Positions 25,306 through 35,895 of a stretch of 61,350 nt of DNA are shown here, piece by piece; the stretch's first letter is position 1, and each line of letters begins with the position of its first letter. The translations under genes were made by a program, and so were the position numbers. Origin of the DNA: Alphaproteobacteria bacterium (lineage in GTDB: Bacteria; Pseudomonadota; Alphaproteobacteria; Acetobacterales; Acetobacteraceae); contig VGDL01000016.1 of the NCBI GenBank assembly GCA_016869735.1, positions 1-61,350 of the forward strand, given 5' to 3'. The notes below the pieces were generated by a model. That model ran no database searches. It saw nothing but the letters and a program-made list of their open reading frames with translations, and had not been told where the DNA came from.

Positions 25306-26181
25306 TCAGGCGACTGGGTTTTCGAGCATACCAATCCCGCTGATTTCAATCCGCACGACATCACCCTTTTGCAGGAATTTCGGCGGGGTGAAGCCAATGC
25401 CAACGCCAACCGGCGTGCCGGTCGCGATCACATCGCCGGGTTCCAGCGTAATGGCGGCGCTGATCGCTTCGATCAGCGTCGGCACGTCAAAGATCAAATC
25501 CGCGACCAGCGCATCCTGGCGCTTTTCGCCATTCACGTGCGTGGTGAGGCGAAGTTTTGCGGGGTCGGGCGCTTCATCCGCCGTCAGGATGGCAGGGCCC
25601 ATGGGGCAGAAACTATCCAAGCCCTTGCCGAGCACCCATTGGCTATGGCGCTTTTGCAAATGCCGCGCGGTCACGTCATTGATAATGGTATAGCCGAATA
25701 CATGGGAAAGCGCGGCGGCTTTGGAAATGCCACGCCCGCCCTGGCCGATCACAATCGCCAATTCGCCTTCGTAATCGAGCCCGCCGGTGGGGTCCAAATG
25801 GCTCAGGATCGGTTCGCCCGTGGCGATGATGGCGGTATGCGGTTTGGAAAACACAACGGGGTAGGGCGGCACCACATCCTTCGCCCCGCCATCAAAGCCC
25901 GATCCCGCGAATTCCTTGGCATGTTCATGGTAGTTCTTTCCGACGCAGAACACGTTCTTCGGCGGGCGCGGAATGGGGGCGAGGATTTTTGCACCCGTCA
26001 CCACCGGTGCCTTGCCCAGCGCATCGCGCGCCGCCGCCAGCGCTGCTGCGCCCGCCGCAATCAGGCCAAGGATATCCCGCGGCAGCGATGGCGCGGCAGC
26101 GCCGATATCGCGCACGGCACCTGCCGCGTCCAGCGCGCCAATACGTGTGCCCGAACCATCCGAAAAAGTGACCAAACGCAT
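25306..26181 (-). CDS. Fumarylacetoacetate hydrolase family protein
   Basis: The 291-residue protein has an N-terminal cap and the FAH core: 'NVFCVGKNYHEHAKEF', the metal-binding 'GLDYEGELAIVIG', 'VFGYTIINDVTARHLQ', 'GKGLDSFCPMGPAI' and 'GDVIATGTPVGVG'. These enzymes hydrolyse or decarboxylate beta-diketo acids, as fumarylpyruvate hydrolase or 2-hydroxyhepta-diene-dioate isomerase. The exact substrate is unclear. It is second in the operon, 28 bases after the amidase and 30 before the Bug gene; GAGG precedes the ATG at 26181. Confidence 0.88.
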   Translation of the reverse strand: MRLVTFSDGSGTRIGALDAAGAVRDIGAAAPSLPRDILGLIAAGAAALAAARDALGKAPVVTGAKILAPIPRPPKNVFCVGKNYHEHAKEFAGSGFDGGAKDVVPPYPVVFSKPHTAIIATGEPILSHLDPTGGLDYEGELAIVIGQGGRGISKAAALSHVFGYTIINDVTARHLQKRHSQWVLGKGLDSFCPMGPAILTADEAPDPAKLRLTTHVNGEKRQDALVADLIFDVPTLIEAISAAITLEPGDVIATGTPVGVGIGFTPPKFLQKGDVVRIEISGIGMLENPVA

Positions 26182-26209
26182 TACTTCATCCTCACTGTCA
26201 TCCAGCGTC

Positions 26210-27616
26210 TCAGGTAGCGCTTTCCGCAGGATTCGCCAGGGGCAGGCTGGCCGCGCGTTCCAAGGCCCGCGCGCCGCGCAGCGCCAGATCGTCGCGGTAA
26301 AGCGGTGCCACCATTTGCACCGCACGCGGCACGCCTTCCCCATCCAAAGCCACCGGCACGGAAATCGCCGGTTGGCGCGTCAGGTTGAAGGCGAAGGTCC
26401 AGGGCGCCCAATCGCGCCAGAGCGATTCCGCCGGGCGGATGGTTGGCTGATCCGCAGCAAAAGCAGCCGTCGGCGTGCAGGCAGTCAGCACCAGATCATA
26501 GCGCTGATGAAACCGCGCCATGGCATGGGCGGCTTCCAGGCGCATTGCCTCGGCGGCCAAATAATCCACCGCGAGCATTTCACCTTCGCGCGCTGCCACC
26601 TCGGCAATGCCGGCATCGAGCAAGTCGCGCTTATCCTCAGGCGTGGTAGCGATAATGCGCGCCAAAGCGACACCCCAGACGCGGCCGAAAATGGCGCGGG
26701 TATCGGGCAGGCCGGGATCGGCTTCCTCTACAATTGCGCCTTGTTCTTCCAAAAGCCGCGCGGCGGCGGCCAGTGCTTCTTCGCCGTCCGCATCCAAGGG
26801 TGGCGCAAAGCCCATGCGGCGCACCACCGCGACACGCAGCCCCGCCACGCCATCTTCTATGCCATCCAGCCAATCGCGCGGATCATCCGGCAGCGCATAG
26901 GGGTCGCGCAGATCATGCCGCGCCATGGCGCCAAACATCAGCGCGGCGTCGCGCACCGTCCGCGTCATGGGGCCGGCCACGGCGACATGGCCAAAGGCGC
27001 CAAGCGGCCATTGCGGAATGCGCCCGAAGGACGGCTTCATCCCGACCAGCCCGCAAAACGCGGCTGGGATGCGAATGGAACCGCCTGCATCGGTGCCGAT
27101 ATGGAGCGGCCCGAAACAGGCCGCGCCTGCCGCCCCAGCACCGGAAGAAGACCCCCCTGGCGTGCGCTTGGGGTTCCAGGGATTGCGCGTGATGCCATGC
27201 AAGGGGCAATCGCCTGGCGATTTCCAGCCGAATTCCGTCGTGGTGGTCTTGCCGATGATCACTGCACCGGCTTGCTTCAGCCCAAGAACGGCGGGGGCGT
27301 CTTCAGTGGCGGGTGTCGTATCCGTACTGCGGCTGCCACGCCGTGTCGGGAAGCCCGCCATGTAAAGCAAATCCTTCACCGTGGCGGGCACGCCATCCAA
27401 GGCACCCATGGGCCTGCCGGCCTGCCAGCGCGCTTCCGATTCACCTGCGGCCTGCAAGGCGCGCGGGTTCATCGCCGCAAAGGCATTTACCCAAGGATTA
27501 TAGCGCGCGACGCGTTCCATCACGGCCTTCAGCGCCTCCACCGGCGAAAGCCGCCGGCGCGCGTAAAGGCCAAGCAGGGTCTCGGCAGACATCAGGGCGG
27601 GATCGGTATCACTCAT
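26210..27616 (-). CDS. Amidase (amidase-signature family)
   Basis: The 468-residue protein carries the amidase triad: Lys81 in 'ATVKDL', the cis-Ser156 in 'GGSSSG' and the nucleophile Ser180 in 'GTDAGGSIR', with the usual 24-residue spacing. It hydrolyses a carboxamide to the acid and ammonia. It heads the operon with FAH, Bug and M20 genes. An aliphatic or aryl amidase could also take the product of the nitrile hydratase-like protein encoded about 3 kb away, though they are not co-transcribed. The ATG at 27616 gives the standard family N-terminus; the longer frame to 27700 runs into the divergent gene. Confidence 0.9.
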   Translation of the reverse strand: MSDTDPALMSAETLLGLYARRRLSPVEALKAVMERVARYNPWVNAFAAMNPRALQAAGESEARWQAGRPMGALDGVPATVKDLLYMAGFPTRRGSRSTDTTPATEDAPAVLGLKQAGAVIIGKTTTTEFGWKSPGDCPLHGITRNPWNPKRTPGGSSSGAGAAGAACFGPLHIGTDAGGSIRIPAAFCGLVGMKPSFGRIPQWPLGAFGHVAVAGPMTRTVRDAALMFGAMARHDLRDPYALPDDPRDWLDGIEDGVAGLRVAVVRRMGFAPPLDADGEEALAAAARLLEEQGAIVEEADPGLPDTRAIFGRVWGVALARIIATTPEDKRDLLDAGIAEVAAREGEMLAVDYLAAEAMRLEAAHAMARFHQRYDLVLTACTPTAAFAADQPTIRPAESLWRDWAPWTFAFNLTRQPAISVPVALDGEGVPRAVQMVAPLYRDDLALRGARALERAASLPLANPAESAT

Positions 27617-27680
27617 GGGGGTTCCGGTATCCTGGCTATGGGTGCAGCATGCCGTCTGATTGCAGGCAGGAGAACCCCTG

Positions 27681-28589
27681 ATGAATGACAAACCCGCCAA
27701 ACCCTGGGAATGGCCCGAAGCGCAATGGCGCGAGATTGTGGGCCGCGCCCGCGCCGGGCGGTCACTGGCGCCGGCTTCCTGGCCGAATGGGGCGCGCTGT
27801 TGTGTTTCGCTTTCCTTCGACGCGGATCACGAAACCATTCCGCTGCGCGATGCCGATGAAAGCCCCATGCGCATCAGCCAGGGGCAATACGGTGCTCGGC
27901 AAGGTGTGCCGCGCATTCGCGCCCTGCTTGCCCGCCATGACATCAAGGCAAGCTTCTTCTACCCCGCAGTCTCCGCGCTTTTGCACCCGGAGGAGGTGCG
28001 CGGTGTCGCGGATGAAGGCCATGAGATTGGCATCCATTCCTGGATCCATGAGGCCAATACGCAATTGCCGCCGGGTGTGGAACGGGACCTTACTTTCCGC
28101 GCTGCCGATACTCTGGAAAAGCTGACAGGCCGGCGCCCGGTTGGCATTCGCACCGCATCCTGGGATTTTTCGGTGGACACGCTTTCCATCATCCGCGAAT
28201 TGGGTTTGCTTTATGATTCATCGCTGATGGCCGATGATGATGCCTATGAATTGCTCGACAAGGGTGAGCCCACCGGCATTGTCGAATTGCCACCGGAATG
28301 GATCCGCGATGATGCGGTTTACTTCAATATGCTGCGCTTTTCGGCACTCCGCCCCTATACGCCCCCTTCAAGCGTGGAGGAGGTGTTCACCGCCGAATTC
28401 GAAGGCGCCTATCGCGAAGGGGGTTTGTTCCTGCTCACCATGCACCCGCATGTGATCGGCCACCGCAGCCGCATCGCGCTGCTTGATCGGTTGGTGCAGC
28501 ATATGAAAAGTTTTGGCGATGTCTGGTTCGCGACGCATGAGGAGGTGGCGCGCTGGTGCAAGACACAGGCGGGGCTTAGTCCGCCTTGA
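27681..28589 (+). CDS. Polysaccharide deacetylase family protein (peptidoglycan/allantoinase-like)
   Basis: The 302-residue protein has the NodB-homology layout: the metal-site 'LSFDADHET', 'ASFFYPAVSALLHPEEV', 'EIGIHSWIHE' (HxxxH-like) and a late 'LLTMHPHVIGHRSR'. The form with 'DADHET' and the C-terminal 'FATHEEVARW' resembles the PuuE / HpPgdA branch, which includes allantoinases and peptidoglycan deacetylases. It probably acts on an amide or N-acetyl group in the cytoplasm, since no signal peptide is visible. It is divergent from the amidase, and its end overlaps the convergent Bug gene by 14 bases. Confidence 0.87.
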   Translation: MNDKPAKPWEWPEAQWREIVGRARAGRSLAPASWPNGARCCVSLSFDADHETIPLRDADESPMRISQGQYGARQGVPRIRALLARHDIKASFFYPAVSALLHPEEVRGVADEGHEIGIHSWIHEANTQLPPGVERDLTFRAADTLEKLTGRRPVGIRTASWDFSVDTLSIIRELGLLYDSSLMADDDAYELLDKGEPTGIVELPPEWIRDDAVYFNMLRFSALRPYTPPSSVEEVFTAEFEGAYREGGLFLLTMHPHVIGHRSRIALLDRLVQHMKSFGDVWFATHEEVARWCKTQAGLSPP

Positions 28590-29532
28590 TCCCCGCGTCG
28601 CGCACAATCTGCGCCCAGCGCTTCATGTCGGCTTCCACCAGGGCGGTGAAGGCAGCGCGGTCCAGCCGATTGGGGGCAGCGCCCAATTCACCCAGGCGTT
28701 CGGTGATGGCGGGCGCGGCCAGGCTTTCTACCAGCGCGGCATTGAGCCGATCCGCAATCGGCGCCGGAATGCCCGCCGGGCCGCTGATGCCGAACCAATT
28801 CGCCGCCACCAATTGCCCGAGGCCAAGCTCCGCCACGGATGGCACATCCGGCCAGCGCGGCAGGCGTTCCGGCGTGGTCATGGCAAGCAAGCGCAGCCTT
28901 TCATTGCGCCCAACATCGGGAATGGCCGCGATCAGCCCATCAATATTGCCGGCAATCACATCAGTCGCCGCCGGCGCCGCGCCGCGATAGGGCACATGGG
29001 TAATGTCAACGCCGGCCAGCCGCTTCAGGATTTCAAGCTTGGCGTGGGATGATGTACCATTGCCATTGGACCCGAAGCGAATGCTGCCCGGTTTTTCGCG
29101 TGCGGCGGCAATCAGCGCGGGCAGGCTCTGCCAGGGGCCGGTGGCTGAAACCGCAATCGCACTCGGCACCGCGGCGAGCAGCCCGATATGCGTGAAATCG
29201 CGCAGCACATCATAGGGCATGGTGGGCAGGATGGCCGGGGCGATGCCTTGGGAGGCGATGTTGGACAGCAAAATGGTCGTGCCATCAGAGGCGCTTTTGG
29301 CGACCGAATCACTGCCCACAACGCCACCCGCACCAGCGCGGTTTTCGACCACCACCGGCGCGCCAAGCCGCGCTTCCATTTCGCGTGCCACCAGGCGCGC
29401 CAGCAAATCTGCCGTGCCACCGGGCGGGAAGGGAACAATGAAGCGGATGGGCCGCGCGGTTTGCGCGCCCGCTGCCAGGGCAGGGGTTGCAAGCATGGCG
29501 GCCAGCACGGCACGACGATGGGAGATTTTCAT
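28576..29532 (-). CDS. Bug/TctC-type tricarboxylate-transporter receptor
   Basis: The 318-residue protein has a signal peptide ('MKISHRRAVLAAMLATPALAAGA') and Bug motifs 'IRFIVPFPPGGTADLLARLVA', 'VVENRAGAGGVVGSD' and 'ITHVPYRGAAPAATDVIAGNI'. It would bind a small carboxylate in the periplasm. It is transcribed divergently from a racemase/decarboxylase-like gene with about 75 bases between starts, so the two may share a promoter region. No transporter membrane subunit is near. Confidence 0.9.
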   Translation of the reverse strand: MKISHRRAVLAAMLATPALAAGAQTARPIRFIVPFPPGGTADLLARLVAREMEARLGAPVVVENRAGAGGVVGSDSVAKSASDGTTILLSNIASQGIAPAILPTMPYDVLRDFTHIGLLAAVPSAIAVSATGPWQSLPALIAAAREKPGSIRFGSNGNGTSSHAKLEILKRLAGVDITHVPYRGAAPAATDVIAGNIDGLIAAIPDVGRNERLRLLAMTTPERLPRWPDVPSVAELGLGQLVAANWFGISGPAGIPAPIADRLNAALVESLAAPAITERLGELGAAPNRLDRAAFTALVEADMKRWAQIVRDAGIKAD

Positions 29533-29608
29533 GGCGTGATTCCTCGGGAATTAAGGCGTTCCATAGACCGGAACCCCCGGCCATGTCTTCATGGCGGCGG
29601 AGGATACC

Positions 29609-30373
29609 ATGTCGCTTGCCTATGCCCGCAACGGCCTGCTTGGGGTGCTGACGCCGCAGGCCAATACCACGGTGGAGCCGGAGTTTTCCCTGCTGCTGCC
29701 ACCCGCGACCGCGATGCTGACCGCGCGCCTGGTCAGCACCAAGCCCAGCCTGAATGACCGGCTGCGCGATTATGTCGCGGGGCTGGATGCCACCTGCGCG
29801 CAATTCGCCAATGCGCCGCTTGGCGCCATTGCCTTTGCCTGCACGGGTTCATCCTATCTGGTGGGGCCGGAGGCCGAGGATGCCGCCATCGCCCGCCTTT
29901 CCACCCGCGCGCCCTTCATCACTGCGGGCCGCGCGGTGTGTGATGCCTTTGCTGCGCTGGGCGCCAAACGCATCGGCCTGGTTTCACCCTATCCGCCGGA
30001 TTTGACCGAAGCCTCGGTGGGGTATTGGAAGGCGCGGGGGTTTGAGGTGGCGCGGGTTGTCGCCATGGCGACGCCGGGCGCGGCCTTCCACCCGATCTAT
30101 GCCCTGGCCGAGGGCGATGCCAGCGCCGCACTTGCCGCCATGCGGGGTGCGGGCGTTCAGGCGATTATTCTGCTGGGCACCGGCATGCCCACCCTCGGCG
30201 CCATTCTGGCGCAGCCGGAAGTGGAGGGCGCGCCGGTGATTTCCTGCAATCTGGCGCTGATGTGGCGCGCGATGGCGGCGCTGAGTGGTGAGGCCGCCGA
30301 TGCGGCTTCACTCAAGCGCTGGATCAGCGGGGCGGATTGGCGGGGGCGATACGCTGAAAGGCTTGGCTTTTAG
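29609..30373 (+). CDS. Asp/Glu racemase superfamily protein (maleate isomerase / AMDase-like)
   Basis: The 254-residue protein fits the Asp/Glu racemase superfamily: 'GVLTPQANTTVEPEFSLLLP' at the start, Cys78 in 'IAFACTGSSYL', and a second Rossmann-like half with 'RIGLVSPYP'. Maleate isomerases and racemases usually have a second catalytic Cys in the C-terminal half; here the matching place reads 'ILLGTGMPT' with Gly190. So it may be a one-cysteine decarboxylase-like enzyme or use a different acid. The ATG at 29609 has GGAGG seven bases upstream. The family makes a carboxylate ligand for the divergent Bug receptor plausible. Confidence 0.8.
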   Translation: MSLAYARNGLLGVLTPQANTTVEPEFSLLLPPATAMLTARLVSTKPSLNDRLRDYVAGLDATCAQFANAPLGAIAFACTGSSYLVGPEAEDAAIARLSTRAPFITAGRAVCDAFAALGAKRIGLVSPYPPDLTEASVGYWKARGFEVARVVAMATPGAAFHPIYALAEGDASAALAAMRGAGVQAIILLGTGMPTLGAILAQPEVEGAPVISCNLALMWRAMAALSGEAADAASLKRWISGADWRGRYAERLGF

Positions 30374-30471
30374 AGCGTCTCCCGTTCACCTTCGGTCACG
30401 GGAGACGCTCCAAATGTTTCTTTGATCGCATTTTCCGAGTCGCCAAGTGATTCCACTTGGCTTGAAAATGC
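30373..30471. repeat. Palindromic intergenic repeat, copy 2 (double hairpin)
   Basis: The gap after the racemase-like gene is filled by two inverted repeats: 13-base arms at 30373-30385 and 30398-30410, then nested arms GCATTTTC/GAAAATGC (30428-30435, 30464-30471) and GCCAAGTG/CACTTGGC (30442-30449, 30454-30461). The minus-strand reading shares a GAAT-centred palindrome and a following GATCAAAGAAACA...GAGCG tract with copy 1 at 5129. No T-run follows the stems. Confidence 0.5.
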
Positions 30472-30476
30472 TTCAA

Positions 30477-31490
30477 TCACGGCTGCCGCGCTTCCGTCAC
30501 CCCAATCATCGCATCGCGCGTGACAAGCTGCTCCAGCTTCGCCGCATCCCACCCTTCGGTGCCCGCAGGCCGGCGCGGTACGACCAGATAGCGCAGCTCC
30601 GCATTGCTATCATGCACGCGAATGCTGGTGCCTTCCGGCAGATGCGTGCCGAATTCCGCCAGCACCCCGCGCGGGTCCCGCACTGCGCGGGCGCGATAGG
30701 CGCGGCTTTTATACCAGGCGGGCGGGCGGCCCAGCACGCTGCGCGGATAACAGGAACAAAGCGTGCAGACGACAAGGTTATGCACATCCGGCGTGTTGAA
30801 GAGCGCCGTCAGCACAGTCTCCCCCCGCGAAAGCCCCAATTCTTCCACCGCCGCGCCGGCATCTTCGGCAAGCCGCGCGGCAAAGCCGGGATCAGTCCAG
30901 GCGCGCACGACAACCCGAGCGCCGAGATGCTCACCCCGACTATCCATCGCCTCAATCTGCGTGCGGATTTCAGCCGCGGTCAGAATGCCGCGCGCGATCA
31001 GCAAATTACGCACCGCCCGCCCGCGCAATTGCAGAGGTGACAGCACGGCAACCCCCGCATCATCATCTTCCTGATAGGGGTGGTCATCATGATCATGGTC
31101 GTGGTCGTGGTCGTGGTCGTGATCATGATGGTGGTGGTGATGGCCGCCGGGCGGGTCTTCCACCTTGTCTTCACCGGCGGCGCGCAGCCGCGCTTCTTCC
31201 GTCACCAAAGCAGCTTCCTGAAGCACGCCCTTTTCCTTGAGCAAGCTCGAAAAACCGTGAATCCAGCGCTCATAATAGGGCAGCTTCCAATAGGTCTCGG
31301 CGTCCAGCGCTTCCTGCACGCGCCGGCTTTCATCGGTGGTGAAAATCTGGCGCTTCTTGTCGGCCAGCAGCAGGCGGATCGCGTCGGCCTCCTTCTCCCA
31401 ATGGGTGGGTTCATGCGCGCTTTGGTCAATCGGCGCGGCGAAGCGCCCCGCGACATCATGGGTCGGCAAGGTTTCGGGTTTTTCGGTCAT
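30477..31490 (-). CDS. Fused nitrile hydratase: beta N-half + His/Asp linker + alpha subunit
   Basis: This 337-residue protein joins three parts. Residues 28-90 resemble the N-terminal half of nitrile hydratase beta subunits or thiocyanate hydrolase ScnB ('TTDESRRVQE', 'YWKLPYYERW', 'LLKEKGVL'); Arg56 falls where the beta Arg that contacts the metal claw is found. Residues 117-137 are almost only His and Asp. Residues 150-330 are an alpha subunit with the claw motif 'CTLCSC' (Cys242, Cys245, Cys247), of the cobalt type. The C-terminal SH3-like half of beta is missing and not encoded nearby. It would hydrate nitriles to amides (or act on thiocyanate), with cobalt bound post-translationally; amidase genes lie in the same window. 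The protein is longer than a plain alpha subunit (about 200). Confidence 0.87.
   Translation of the reverse strand: MTEKPETLPTHDVAGRFAAPIDQSAHEPTHWEKEADAIRLLLADKKRQIFTTDESRRVQEALDAETYWKLPYYERWIHGFSSLLKEKGVLQEAALVTEEARLRAAGEDKVEDPPGGHHHHHHDHDHDHDHDHDHDDHPYQEDDDAGVAVLSPLQLRGRAVRNLLIARGILTAAEIRTQIEAMDSRGEHLGARVVVRAWTDPGFAARLAEDAGAAVEELGLSRGETVLTALFNTPDVHNLVVCTLCSCYPRSVLGRPPAWYKSRAYRARAVRDPRGVLAEFGTHLPEGTSIRVHDSNAELRYLVVPRRPAGTEGWDAAKLEQLVTRDAMIGVTEARQP
31080..31142 (-). repeat. In-frame hexanucleotide repeat coding His-Asp linker
   Basis: A GTGGTC/GATCAT-type hexamer tract encodes residues 117-137 of the nitrile hydratase fusion (13 His, the rest Asp). Six-base units keep the frame, so the linker length could vary by slippage. 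Confidence 0.8.
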
Positions 31491-31573
31491 GCGGGGTGCT
31501 CCATCACTGCCATCTTGCCAGGGGCGGCAATTCAGGCAAAGCCTTGCGTCAACCGGGAAGGAGCTTTCACCTC

Positions 31574-32563
31574 ATGACAATGATCACACGCCGCACCACC
31601 ATCGCCGCCGCTGCCGGGCTGCTCGCTGCCCCCGCGCTTCGCGCGCAGGCCGCCTGGCCCAACAAGGATTTGCGCCTGATCTGCCCCTTCCCGCCGGGGG
31701 GAACCACGGATGTCGTGGCGCGGCTGATCGCCGGCGCCATGCGTGAAAGGCTCGGCCGCAATGTCGTTGTCGAAAACCAGCCAGGTGCGGGCAGCACACT
31801 TGCCGCCGGGCGCTTTGCGCGCGAAGCCGATGATCACGCCCTGTTCTTGAGCCAGATTGCCTCTCACGCCATTGGCCCGGCGCTTTATCGGAACCTTGCT
31901 TATGATCCGGAAGCCGATTTCCGCGCTGTGACGCTCGTGGTGACAGTGCCCAATGTCTGGGTCGCCAATCCGCGCCGCGTTCCGGGGGGCGATTTGCGCG
32001 CCTTTTTGCGCGATGCCAAGGCGAAGCCCGGGGAACGCAATTTCGCCTCGGCCGGCAATGGCACCTCAACCCATCTGACCGGGGAGGTGATCAACCAATT
32101 GGCGGGCGTGCGCGTGCAGCATGTGCCCTATCGCGGCGCTGGCCCGGCCATGACCGCGGTGATCGGCGGCGAGGTGGATAGCCTGATAGACAATCTGCCA
32201 ACCGCGCTGCCGCAAATCCAGAATGGCAATGTGCTGGCACTCGCCGTGACATCGCGCGAACGCCTGCCCGCTTTGCCCAATGTGCCTGCCGTTTCCGAAT
32301 TGGGCGCCGAGTTCAACCTTGTGGGGTTTGAGGCTGAGGCCTGGTTTGGCCTGCATGCGCATAAATCGGCATCAGACGCTGTGGTGGCGCGTATGGCGGA
32401 AGTGGCGCAGGCCGCGCTGAATGACCCGGCGGTGCGCCAGCAATTGGCCGCGCGCGGCACCACCCCGCGCGGCGGCCCGCCCGCCGATTACGCGGCGCTG
32501 GTCGCGAGTGAGCGCAAGCGCTGGTTTGAGGTGGTGCGGCAGGGGAATGTGCAGGCGGATTGA
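31574..32563 (+). CDS. Bug/TctC-type tricarboxylate-transporter receptor
   Basis: The 329-residue protein has a signal peptide ('TRRTTIAAAAGLLAAPALRAQ') and the Bug motifs 'LRLICPFPPGGTTDVVARLIA', 'VVENQPGAGSTLAAG' and 'VQHVPYRGAGPAMTAVIGGEV'. It is the first gene of a five-gene plus-strand operon with RraA-like, thioesterase, hydroxyisobutyrate dehydrogenase-like and Fe-alcohol dehydrogenase genes, which suggests uptake of their substrate. The ATG at 31574 is preferred over 31496 because it leaves a proper signal and follows AAGGAG. Confidence 0.9.
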   Translation: MTMITRRTTIAAAAGLLAAPALRAQAAWPNKDLRLICPFPPGGTTDVVARLIAGAMRERLGRNVVVENQPGAGSTLAAGRFAREADDHALFLSQIASHAIGPALYRNLAYDPEADFRAVTLVVTVPNVWVANPRRVPGGDLRAFLRDAKAKPGERNFASAGNGTSTHLTGEVINQLAGVRVQHVPYRGAGPAMTAVIGGEVDSLIDNLPTALPQIQNGNVLALAVTSRERLPALPNVPAVSELGAEFNLVGFEAEAWFGLHAHKSASDAVVARMAEVAQAALNDPAVRQQLAARGTTPRGGPPADYAALVASERKRWFEVVRQGNVQAD

Positions 32564-32621
32564 TGGGGTTTGACCGGAAGCGCCGTCCGCCCGATGCTGC
32601 GCCCAAGGAGGAAACCTTGAC

Positions 32622-33329
32622 ATGAGCAAATACCCCTTTACCGCCGCCGACCTTGAAGCGCTGCGCGCCTGGGATACGCCCACCATCTGCAATGCGCTGG
32701 AAGTGGTCGCACCCCATCGGCGCAATTACGGCTTCACCGTGCGCCCCTTTGTGGCGGTGGACCGCAAACTCCCGCCGATTTGCGGCCTGGCGCGCACCGG
32801 CACGCAGCGCGCCGCCTTCCCATCCGGCCGCAGCAAGGATGCCGATAAGGCCATGCGCATTGGCTGGTATGAATATGTCGCCGATGCCGCACTGCCGACA
32901 ATCGTTTGCTTGCAGGATTTGGACGACACCCCAGGTGTTGGCGCCTTTTGGGGTGAAGTGAATAGCGCGGTGCATAAGGGCCTTGGCGCGCTTGGCGTGG
33001 TGACCAATGGTTCGGTGCGCGACCTTGAGATGTTTGCGCCGGGCTTTCAGGGCATTGCCGGGGTGGTAAACCCCTCGCATTCCTATGTCCATATCGTCGC
33101 GCTGAAATGCGAAGTGACCATCCATGGTATGCAGGTATCCCACGATGATGTGATCCATGCCGACCATCACGGCGCGGTGGTGATCCCGCATGATGTGGTG
33201 ACGAAAATCCCGGCGGCGATTGATCTTGGCGCGCGAAAGGAAGCCGTGATCCTGGATATGGCGCGCGCCTCTGGCTTCAATATCGCCAAGCTGCGCGAAG
33301 CTTTGGCGAAATCCGAAGACATCCACTGA
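32622..33329 (+). CDS. RraA-family protein (HMG/CHA aldolase-like)
   Basis: The 235-residue protein belongs to the RraA family: 'DTPTICNALEVV' at the start, 'GVGAFWGEVNSAVHKGLGALGVVTNGSVRDLE' with the conserved Arg-Asp pair, and 'HADHHGAVVIPHDVV'. Members with these features are metal-dependent aldolases on 4-hydroxy-4-methyl-2-oxoglutarate-like acids, while RraA proper inhibits RNase E; the catabolic neighbours favour an aldolase or decarboxylase. A good AAGGAGG site precedes the start. Second gene of the operon. Confidence 0.82.
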   Translation: MSKYPFTAADLEALRAWDTPTICNALEVVAPHRRNYGFTVRPFVAVDRKLPPICGLARTGTQRAAFPSGRSKDADKAMRIGWYEYVADAALPTIVCLQDLDDTPGVGAFWGEVNSAVHKGLGALGVVTNGSVRDLEMFAPGFQGIAGVVNPSHSYVHIVALKCEVTIHGMQVSHDDVIHADHHGAVVIPHDVVTKIPAAIDLGARKEAVILDMARASGFNIAKLREALAKSEDIH

Positions 33330-33368
33330 ACGGGGTGGGGGCGGGCAACCGCCCCCAGACCTCCGCCC

Positions 33369-33818
33369 ATGACCGAACGCCCGATCCTAACTGAGGTTAA
33401 GCCCGCCTGGGTGGATCACTACGGCCATATGAATCTGGCCTATTACCTTGTTGTCTTCGACATGGCTTGCGATGTGCAGTGGCTCGATCTCGGTTTCGGG
33501 CCTGAGTATCGCGCGCGCGGCATGGGCACTTTCGCCGCTGAAAGCTGGCAGGCCTATATCCGCGAAGTGCGCGAAGGCGCGCCACTCGCCTGTGAAAGCA
33601 TCGTCCTGGATTATGATGATAAGCGCCTGCTCTGCCGGCATGTGATGTACCATGCGAAGGAAGGCTGGCAGGTTGCGGAGAATGAGGTGCTGTACCTAAG
33701 TATTGATTTGACCAAGCGGCGCGTGGCGCCCTGGCCGCAAGATATCCTGGCGCGCCTGGCCGCGCGCCGTTCTGGTGAGGCTGCCAAGCGGCTCTCGCTC
33801 AAGCCCAAAACCCGTTGA
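33369..33818 (+). CDS. Hotdog-fold acyl-CoA thioesterase
   Basis: The 149-residue protein has the hotdog fold of the 4-hydroxybenzoyl-CoA thioesterase type: 'WVDHYGHMNLAYYLVVFDMA' carries the catalytic Asp-His region, followed by 'SWQAYIREVREGAPLACES' and 'RHVMYHAKEGWQVAENEVLYLSIDL'. It resembles the thioesterase domains near carnitine dehydrogenase genes. It would release a CoA ester within this operon. It lies 39 bases after the RraA-like gene and 23 before the next gene. Confidence 0.82.
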   Translation: MTERPILTEVKPAWVDHYGHMNLAYYLVVFDMACDVQWLDLGFGPEYRARGMGTFAAESWQAYIREVREGAPLACESIVLDYDDKRLLCRHVMYHAKEGWQVAENEVLYLSIDLTKRRVAPWPQDILARLAARRSGEAAKRLSLKPKTR

Positions 33819-33841
33819 ATTTTAAGGAAAGGAAGCAAGCC

Positions 33842-34729
33842 ATGGCACGCATCGGCTTTGTTGGTCTTGGCAATATGGGCGCGCATATGGTGCGCAACCT
33901 GCTGAAGGCGGGGCATGAGGTCACGGTGTTTGACATCGTGCCCGCCACCATTGCCTCGGTCACGCCCAATGGCGCCAAGGCGGCAGCCAATGCTGCCGAT
34001 GCGGCGCGCGGGGCGGAGATTGTCATCACCATGCTGCCGGCGGGCCAGCATGTGCGCGATGCCTGGCTTGGCGCGGGTGGCATGGCGGCGGCCAGCGCGC
34101 CGGATGCGCTACTGATTGATTGCTCCACCATTGATGTTGCAACCGCACGCGATGTTGCGACGAAATCTGGCCGCGCCTTTGTGGATGCGCCGGTCTCTGG
34201 CGGGACCATGGGCGCGGAAGCCGGCACGCTGACCTTCATGGTGGGCGGCACGGCAGAGCATTTCGCACGTGCCGAGCCGATCCTGAAGCAGATGGGGCGC
34301 AATGTCATTCATTGCGGCGCGGCGGGCGCGGGGCAGGGCGTGAAGCTCTGCAATAACATGATGCTGGCAGCGAGCATGATCGTCACTTCGGAAGCCTTTG
34401 TGCTGGCAGAAAAGCTTGGGCTTTCGCATCAGGCGCTATTTGACGTGTGTTCCACCTCCACCAGCAATTCCTGGGCGCTTTCCAGCTATTGCCCGGTGCC
34501 GGGGCCGGTGCCGGCCAGCCCTGCCAATCGGGATTACAAGCCCGGCTTTGCGGCGGCACTCATGGCCAAAGATTTGGGCCTCGCGCAGGAAGCGGTGGAA
34601 CAGGTGGGCACCGCATCGCCGATTGGCGCCCATGCGCTTTCGCTGTTCCGGCAATATCTGGAACGCGGCGGCGGGGATAAGGATTTCTCCGGCATTATCA
34701 ATATGATCCGCGAAGGGGGCGTGCAGTGA
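33842..34729 (+). CDS. 3-hydroxyisobutyrate dehydrogenase-family oxidoreductase
   Basis: The 295-residue protein has the beta-hydroxyacid dehydrogenase signature: 'RIGFVGLGNMGAHMVRNLLKAGHEVTVFD' (NAD loop), 'FVDAPVSGGTMGAEAGTLTFMVGG' and the catalytic Lys in 'GAGQGVKLCNNMML'. It is closest in layout to MmsB, which oxidises 3-hydroxyisobutyrate in valine breakdown, but the substrate may be another 3-hydroxy acid. The ATG at 33842 follows a purine-rich AAGGAAAGGAAG. Its stop overlaps the GTG of the next gene. Confidence 0.86.
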   Translation: MARIGFVGLGNMGAHMVRNLLKAGHEVTVFDIVPATIASVTPNGAKAAANAADAARGAEIVITMLPAGQHVRDAWLGAGGMAAASAPDALLIDCSTIDVATARDVATKSGRAFVDAPVSGGTMGAEAGTLTFMVGGTAEHFARAEPILKQMGRNVIHCGAAGAGQGVKLCNNMMLAASMIVTSEAFVLAEKLGLSHQALFDVCSTSTSNSWALSSYCPVPGPVPASPANRDYKPGFAAALMAKDLGLAQEAVEQVGTASPIGAHALSLFRQYLERGGGDKDFSGIINMIREGGVQ

Positions 34730-35895
34730 TCACGAATTTTGTCTCCCCACGCTTGTTGGTGATGGGCGGCGGCTCCCTTGCCCAGGCGGCTTCCGTGCTG
34801 GCGCAATTTGGCCTGTCGCGCCCGCTGGTGGTGACCGATCCCTGGATGGTGTCTTCCGGCACGGTTGAAAAACTGCTCGCACCTTTGAAGGCGGCGGGCA
34901 TCAGCTATGGCGTCTTCAGCGATACCGTGCCGGACCCGACTGATACCGTCATCGCCACCGGTGTCACTGCCATGCAGGGGCGCGATTATGATTGCCTGAT
35001 CGGTTTTGGTGGCGGCAGCCCGATGGATACCGCCAAGGCCATGACCATCCTGGCCGCCGCGCCAGCAGGTGCCAAGATGCGCGACTTCAAGGTGCCGGCC
35101 CAGGCCAATAAGGCGGCGCTACCGGTGATTTGCATCCCAACCACGGCGGGGACGGGCAGTGAGGCCACGCGCTTCACCGTCATCACCGATACCGAAACCG
35201 ATGAGAAGATGCTGATCGCGGGGCTTGGCGCGCTGCCCTTGGCCGCGATTGTGGATTACGAACTGACCTTCAGCGTGCCGCCGCGCACCACCGCCGATAC
35301 CGGCATTGATAGCCTGACCCATGCGCTGGAAGCCCTGGTGTCCCGCCGCGCCAATCCGGAATCGGATGAATATGCTTTACGCGCCATGCGCCTGATCGGG
35401 CCCAATCTGCGCACCGTTTATCAGGACCCGAAGAATGCCGCGGCGCGCGAAGCCATGATGAAGGGGGCCACACTCGCGGGGCTTGCCTTCAGCAATAGCT
35501 CGGTCGCGTTGGTACATGGCATGTCGCGCCCGATCGGGGCGCATTTCCATGTGCCGCATGGGCTTTCCAACGCCATGCTTTTGCCTGCTGTCACGGCCTA
35601 TTCGCTCAATGCCGCGCTTCCCCGTTACGCCGAGGCGGCGCGGGCCATTGGCGTCGCAGGCCGGGATGAGGGTGATCAAAGCGCAGGGGCAAAACTGCTT
35701 GAGGAGCTTTCGGCGCTCAACCGCGAATTGGCGGTGCCGACCCCGGCAGCTTACGGCATTGATGCGGCGAAATGGGATGGGCTGCTGCCCACCATGGCAG
35801 CGCAGGCTTTGGCTTCAGGCAGCCCGGCCAATAACCCGGCGGTGCCGGATGCCGAAGCGATCATGGCGCTCTACCGCCGCGCCTGGCAGGGCTGA
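34726..35895 (+). CDS. Iron-containing (group III) alcohol dehydrogenase
   Basis: The 389-residue protein has the group III pattern: 'LIGFGGGSPMDTAKAMTILAA', 'ICIPTTAGTGSEATRFTVITD', and the metal-binding 'DSLTHALEAL' and 'HGMSRPIGAHFHVPHGLSNAMLLP'. It oxidises or reduces a primary alcohol/aldehyde or a keto acid with NAD(H). The GTG start at 34726 overlaps the preceding stop (GTGA), so the two dehydrogenases are coupled. The 3' end overlaps the convergent EAL gene by 35 bases. Confidence 0.88.
   Translation: MITNFVSPRLLVMGGGSLAQAASVLAQFGLSRPLVVTDPWMVSSGTVEKLLAPLKAAGISYGVFSDTVPDPTDTVIATGVTAMQGRDYDCLIGFGGGSPMDTAKAMTILAAAPAGAKMRDFKVPAQANKAALPVICIPTTAGTGSEATRFTVITDTETDEKMLIAGLGALPLAAIVDYELTFSVPPRTTADTGIDSLTHALEALVSRRANPESDEYALRAMRLIGPNLRTVYQDPKNAAAREAMMKGATLAGLAFSNSSVALVHGMSRPIGAHFHVPHGLSNAMLLPAVTAYSLNAALPRYAEAARAIGVAGRDEGDQSAGAKLLEELSALNRELAVPTPAAYGIDAAKWDGLLPTMAAQALASGSPANNPAVPDAEAIMALYRRAWQG

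Follow-up and report, generated by a model that had tools for sequence, protein, structure and literature searches.

The window analysed here is a stretch of 61,350 nucleotides from an Acetobacteraceae genome (Alphaproteobacteria bacterium, assembly GCA_016869735.1, contig VGDL01000016.1). It contains an open reading frame (ORF) whose product, a protein of 337 residues read from an ATG, joins the N-terminal half of a nitrile hydratase (NHase) beta subunit (beta-N) to an NHase alpha subunit through a run of histidine and aspartate. The features of this fusion are the following:

30477..31490, minus strand: betaN-(His/Asp)-alpha fusion ORF, 337 residues, stop codon included (ORF list, Pfam, homologues)
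31176..31460, minus strand: NHase beta N-terminal domain, residues 11-105 (PF21006, NCBIfam nitrile_beta)
31323..31325, minus strand: Arg56, counterpart of the claw-contacting NHase beta Arg (3qxe_B alignment and aligned fusions)
31080..31142, minus strand: His/Asp run, residues 117-137, 13 His and 8 Asp (sequence; mostly low-confidence in the model)
30495..31031, minus strand: NHase alpha domain, residues 154-332 (PF02979, 257 bits)
30750..30767, minus strand: metal claw CTLCSC, residues 242-247 (sequence and aligned fusions)
30741..30743, minus strand: Arg250, in CTLCSCYPR (alpha-segment comparison and aligned fusions)

Both domains were recognised well above their Pfam cut-offs, PF21006 (NHase_beta_N) with 61.9 bits (cut-off 21.5) and PF02979 (NHase_alpha) against a cut-off of 27.2, and the alpha domain carries the CxLCSC claw, which places the protein in both families. 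A homologue search scored the 8000 candidates with the largest number of shared words and gave a list of 120. All but one of the candidates (7999/8000) reach E 0.001, and PF21006 and PF02979 occur without PF02211, the family of the C-terminal half of beta (beta-C), in 100 of the 120 on the list; because so many candidates pass and share this domain order, the architecture is not due to chance, and a frame artefact was likewise ruled out. We aligned the window protein with 55 of these 100 proteins, chosen by eye for spread, and the claw is intact and identical in 56/56 of the aligned fusions. Residues 49-100 align to the Pseudomonas putida beta chain 3qxe_B without gaps in phmmer, with Arg56 lying over an Arg of that chain. 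The linker, HHHHHHDHDHDHDHDHDHDDH, consists of 21 residues of His and Asp alone, and in the predicted model the predicted local distance difference test (pLDDT) falls below 50 at residues 115-125 and 133-141. No PF02211 domain was found in the protein by the Pfam scan, nor any beta-C in the whole window with a custom beta-C profile, and the fusion thus lacks the full beta in the same chain or operon that characterizes a complete NHase (EC 4.2.1.84). The beta-N/alpha part of the model is nevertheless compact and confident although beta-C is absent. A first-pass annotation, made from the sequence alone, had described a beta-type or ScnB-like N-terminal half fused to a complete alpha with CTLCSC, a 21-residue linker of 13 His and 8 Asp, a gapless beta alignment including Arg56, and no beta-C in the protein or the window. 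This description agrees with the Pfam domains, the NCBIfam scores, the claw, the 3qxe_B alignment and the two beta-C searches.

Since NHase activators are relatives of beta-N (the activator at L013 scores 63.1 bits with PF21006), this family alone is unable to separate a beta from an activator. With NCBIfam, the fusion scores 54 bits for nitrile_beta, below its full-length cut-off of 152, and 11.9 bits for the activator equivalog nitrile_acc (TIGR03889, cut-off 46), with which the control activator L013 scores 93.1 bits. According to one study (PMC4709657), the oxidised claw cysteines are salt-bridged by two beta arginines, and P14K, the P. putida activator, is without the matching Arg. Arg56 is an Arg in 56/56 aligned fusions, and L013 has, by eye, another residue at this position. 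The profile scores with their positive control, together with Arg56, led us to reject an activator, and from these comparisons the N-terminal domain reads as beta-type; the check that the annotation had set against itself, a profile match to an ordinary activator, came out on the beta side. In a tree of beta-N domains, 17 classical betas, 8 true activators and 5 beta-Ns encoded by separate genes (split beta-Ns) form one well-supported branch (100/99) with zero fusions inside; the tree has few columns and many weak forks, and of its 20 rows labelled activator by script the other 12 are alpha N-tails.

The other half of beta is encoded at a distance. The only other NHase alpha locus of the assembly lies on contig C15 (C15:13946-15112, that is L006 8946-10112) and holds a split set of beta-N (97 residues), beta-C (97 residues) and alpha (193 residues), in which the stop of beta-N overlaps the start of beta-C:

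G000:C15:14236-14529: beta-C gene, 97 residues (PF02211)

This gene is the single PF02211 match in the genome, and the two PF21006 matches are the C15 beta-N and the fusion. Hence both claw-contacting beta arginines are encoded in the genome, Arg56 in the fusion and a second one in the motif HIRTPHYVRG of the C15 beta-C. The second is assigned to the Arg of the HIR motif from the alignment, and we take it to be betaArg141 in Fe-type numbering. Two chains are matched equally well by the C15 beta-C, namely 2dd4_A, the alpha subunit of thiocyanate hydrolase (ScNase), at E 8.8e-9 and an Fe-type NHase beta at E 8.9e-9. A TIGR03889 search of this genome detected no activator (best 14.8 bits, cut-off 46).

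Comparable arrangements were found in further genomes. The fusion protein has a match in 127 genomes of a 200-genome draw from the family, of which 200 a total of 122 have beta-C and, among the matches listed, at least 8 the full fusion; a draw of 385 genomes of the class, searched at E 1e-30, gave among the matches listed full fusions in our genome and in three genomes of another family, f26 (two fusions each in G236 and G367, one in G464). By genus, the fusion occurs in 3/3 genomes of g46 and in 10/15 of g96, where the split alpha is present in 15/15. The total found is 18 fusion genomes plus one genome (G419) with an unfused pair. Each of these 19 genomes has exactly one beta-C, never adjoining the fusion, and a split set coexists with the fusion in 17/18 fusion genomes, its alpha in G236 being seen only as a contig-edge fragment. 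With the custom profile, no beta-C was found near the fusions in six loci (L007-L012, the flanks of L009-L012 being short on at least one side) and seven regions of 15 kb (L078-L084), and no activator was detected in the 18 fusion genomes by the PF21006 search. The presence of beta-C in 8/8 fusion genomes against 122/200 in the family background gives p 0.017, with kinship ignored. We conclude that the fusion is a real, conserved and recurrent architecture rather than a quirk of one genome. The supposition of the annotation that a bacterial version without beta-C is uncommon has to be given up, and so has the wider implication that the organism itself is without the second half of beta; of the genome check that it proposed, the distant beta-C turned up on C15 and the activator did not.

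With two of the three parts fused and the third in a distant gene, the enzyme probably borrows the subunit that completes it. From the computed domains, residues, neighbours and beta-C at the other locus we infer, as a rather probable reading, that the fusion serves as a catalytic module of NHase type and uses beta-C in trans, the trans assembly, the cobalt, the substrate and the order of events being part of that inference. Of the three parts that make up a cobalt NHase-type enzyme, the fusion would supply beta-N, and alpha with its His-rich N-tail. The chain would fold as a beta-N/alpha pair bearing the claw together with Arg56, the first of the two claw-contacting arginines, and the second, that of HIRTPHYVRG, would come in trans from the only beta-C gene, which lies in the split locus. 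A possible alternative is that the fusion is a two-part enzyme that acts alone, with a chemistry or substrate range of its own, and that the place of beta-C is taken by the linker, by an oligomer or by a changed beta-N/alpha interface. The compact and confident model without beta-C would fit this, as would the fact that beta-C was never found beside a fusion and may be kept only for the split set of those 17 genomes. We regard it as unlikely, since such a chain would be without one claw-contacting Arg, beta-C occurs in all 18 fusion genomes, and in one of them (G045) an open and conserved beta-C persists despite the loss of most of the split set.

The G045 assembly consists of one contig of 3.37 Mb and is 98% complete; like G125 and G176 it belongs to genus g46, and its fusion is the sole full alpha of that genome. 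Its split locus and that of G125 share their flanking genes, which encode an amidase and a binding protein:

L077:7044-7636 (G045:C1, about 205.0-205.6 kb): decayed split beta-N and alpha around an open beta-C

Here only 38 codons are left of beta-N and about 40 residues of alpha, with the claw gone, and the beta-C is open, scores 65 bits with PF02211 and keeps its Arg as HFRTPHYVRG. The ratio of nonsynonymous to synonymous substitutions (dN/dS) of this beta-C is 0.18 to G125 and 0.19 to G176, and that of the fusion over the same pairs is 0.19 and 0.21. The overlap between the stop codon of the beta-N remnant and the GTG at which beta-C likely starts is preserved. A more tentative extension of the use of beta-C in trans, which we find conceivable without leaning towards it, is that one beta-C completes two catalytic halves with different substrates, the split betaN+alpha pair and the fused chain, that this came about with several origins and that G045 (Elioraea-like) is an end point. 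If this is true, G045 has dropped its split halves and retained beta-C for the fusion alone.

Several observations weigh against completion in trans by beta-C. The fusion does not reach the NHase alpha equivalog TIGR01323 (245.5 bits, cut-off 249.85), and the split alpha of C15 is likewise below it (239.8 bits); the beta-N tree is poorly resolved; and beta-C is perhaps kept solely for the split enzyme, as 122/200 family genomes have it. G045, moreover, is one genome, its fusion has the unusual claw CMLCSC, and the beta-C of the intact pair G125-G176 evolves more slowly (dN/dS 0.07) than that of G045. The odd claw and the slower beta-C of the intact pair leave the evidence from G045 strong yet not clean.

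The annotation had also proposed that the His/Asp linker replaces the activator in cobalt loading. Many free-standing alphas, both of split sets and of two-gene enzymes, have a His-rich N-terminal tail, and on this comparison the linker looks like that tail of alpha. The split alpha of our genome (L002) is without it. Seven related genomes without fusion (five of g96 and two of our genus) have a single PF21006 match, the split beta-N, so that no activator was detected in 7/7 of them, and the split alphas of the five g96 genomes (L102-L106) are also without His tail. As these g96 genomes combine tail-less split alphas with no detected activator, the tail is not a general substitute for the activator, and the proposal is not supported. 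In Monosiga, a review (PMC7193024) describes the His17 stretch as dispensable for metal incorporation. The linker may have a buffering or local role with cobalt.

In a related alternative, the whole fusion would be a maturation factor like alpha-e2 or alpha(P14K)2, whose His/Asp run loads cobalt that is passed on to the split alpha. Activators, which are kin of beta-N, form alpha-activator complexes that hand on cobalt, as stated in PMC4709657, and neither the PF21006 search of the 18 fusion genomes nor the TIGR03889 search of our own detected an activator. We consider this explanation quite improbable. Arg56 is kept in 56/56 fusions, whereas L013 has another residue there and P14K, according to PMC4709657, lacks the Arg; the fusion beta-N falls outside the branch of classical betas and activators; in G045 there is no complete split alpha that the fusion could serve; and an amidase follows the fusion in four genomes. 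Furthermore, 5/15 g96 genomes and both other genomes of our genus that were examined have the split set with neither a fusion nor a detected activator, which weakens in particular the idea of an obligate cobalt loader.

The neighbouring genes and one residue after the claw bear on the substrate. Two neighbours in the window are of interest:

31574..32563, plus strand: TctC substrate-binding protein (PF03401, 202 bits)
26210..27700, minus strand: amidase (PF01425, 306 bits)

The TctC gene is transcribed away from the fusion, and a related gene adjoins the fusion in the 13 other loci examined; an amidase adjoins it on the same strand in G045, G125, G176 and G197. Under the reading with beta-C in trans, the complex would probably hydrate nitriles, possibly small or anionic ones in view of Arg250, upstream of the amidase, with uptake through the TctC-type binding protein. 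Arg250 is an Arg in 55/56 aligned fusions, and most two-gene NHase alphas examined have Trp there. Its equivalence to ScNase Arg136 and NHase alpha Trp116 is taken from the titles of two paired PDB mutants, ScNase R136W (3vyg) and NHase aW116R (3vyh), and by it the fusion has the Arg that characterizes ScNase at the Trp116 position. By analogy with these mutants, the enzyme may plausibly act on thiocyanate or on small anionic nitriles.

It could be, then, that the protein is a thiocyanate hydrolase or another anionic-nitrile hydrolase and not an organic-nitrile hydratase. Apart from Arg250, which replaces the Trp and recalls Arg136 of ScNase, the division of beta into two parts is like that of ScNase, the free-standing beta-C matches 2dd4_A as well as it matches the Fe-type NHase beta, and an Arg56-Arg57 pair is present in 46/56 fusions. 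This remains doubtful to us: the score for the nitrile alpha is far above that for the thiocyanate hydrolase gamma TIGR03887 (184.3 bits, cut-off 291.5), both being below their cut-offs, the amidase neighbours suit an amide product, and the ScNase gene order of alpha, beta, gamma and activator, as given in PMC7193024, differs from that of the split set. In addition, Arg or Lys is common to 64/70 split alphas, so that Arg250 may be a mere lineage marker.

The surrounding segment (25306-35895 of the window) resembles a catabolic island. It holds two TctC binding proteins, the amidase, members of the fumarylacetoacetate-hydrolase and polysaccharide deacetylase families, a protein of the arylmalonate decarboxylase/Asp-Glu racemase type, an RraA-like protein, a thioesterase, a hydroxyisobutyrate dehydrogenase and an iron alcohol dehydrogenase.

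Concerning origin, the 113 alpha segments kept from the fetched loci once identical ones were dropped were classed by script as 70 split, 24 fused, 17 two-gene, one unfused pair and one unclear. The motif after the claw is CYPR in 24/24 fused alphas and CYPR or CYPK in 64 of the 70 split ones (CYPW in 5, CYPV in 1), and among two-gene alphas it is CYPW in 12/17, the rest having CTAF, CTAY or CYPL. An alpha tree of 126 rows was built by dropping segments shorter than 150 residues and adding 14 proteins, all labelled fused and including one with beta-C (P0097). The family's fusions and several other fusion proteins are in one branch (30 rows, 98/84), and the f26 fusions with P0099 form a separate one (100/95). 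The well-supported branches require that the fused label changed 4 times or more, which points to a fusion that arose repeatedly or was gained and then lost. Most likely, the fusion would have come from a three-gene betaN-betaC-alpha lineage in which the set was duplicated, one copy lost beta-C and the remainder fused. The pair in G419 (L125, G419:C14:624523-625479) is an unfused counterpart, in which beta-N and alpha follow each other in one frame, with a stop and a few codons between them and no beta-C.

Some sequences stand apart. L034 (G120:C598), a split-type alpha with an adjoining beta-C, sits on a long branch inside the 30-row fusion branch and may mark a reversal or a transfer. P0097, of 533 residues, has beta-N, beta-C, a His-rich stretch and alpha in one chain, lies at the base of the fusion branch and is possibly of eukaryotic source. 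The f26 fusion L127 (G464:C77) has the claw CSLCSC, the type of iron NHases, in place of CTLCSC. Finally, an extra NHase type with the claw CTLCSCTAF or CTLCSCTAY (L062-L065, in G112, G115, G072 and G134), carried by some genomes of the family, forms a long separate branch of the alpha tree.

Among known systems, three-subunit thiocyanate hydrolase (2dd4, 2zzd) is similar in having beta in N- and C-parts with a separate alpha, the same folds and, from PDB titles, an Arg after CYP (gamma Arg136). In contrast, here beta-N and alpha are one chain with beta-C at another locus, and the fusion alpha falls short of the thiocyanate cut-off in NCBIfam and is closer to nitrile alpha. The eukaryotic fusion NHases of Monosiga brevicollis and others share, according to PMC2603476 and PMC3323583, the order of beta then alpha and, in the opisthokont members, the His-rich stretch between them; both subunits are described there, whereas the bacterial chain is without beta-C and does not belong to the Monosiga type. 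PMC3323583 reports that the prokaryotic data then available contained no beta-alpha fusion genes. The two-gene cobalt NHases of P. putida and Pseudonocardia thermophila have a separate activator and Trp after the claw; the fusion has Arg instead of this Trp, and in its genome beta-C is unlinked and no activator was detected. An engineered P. putida fusion also has beta and alpha in one chain, but its beta is complete and, according to PMC4709657, it still needs the activator P14K. In our literature search, with subscription papers outside it, we found no bacterial betaN-alpha fusion described, no paper pairing nitrile hydratase with Roseomonas and no study of the three-gene CYPR lineage, which lies between NHase and thiocyanate hydrolase and is frequent in the Alphaproteobacteria examined. 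New here are the third part encoded elsewhere, the repeated origin, the unfused intermediate and the case of G045.

NHases are industrial catalysts, and the cobalt enzymes studied load their cobalt through activators that exchange alpha subunits. The fusion is a new, repeatedly evolved variant of this known enzyme. A natural chain that ties beta-N to alpha, with a loose beta-C and no detected activator in its genome, offers a direct way to ask which half of beta metal loading, claw oxidation and catalysis each require.
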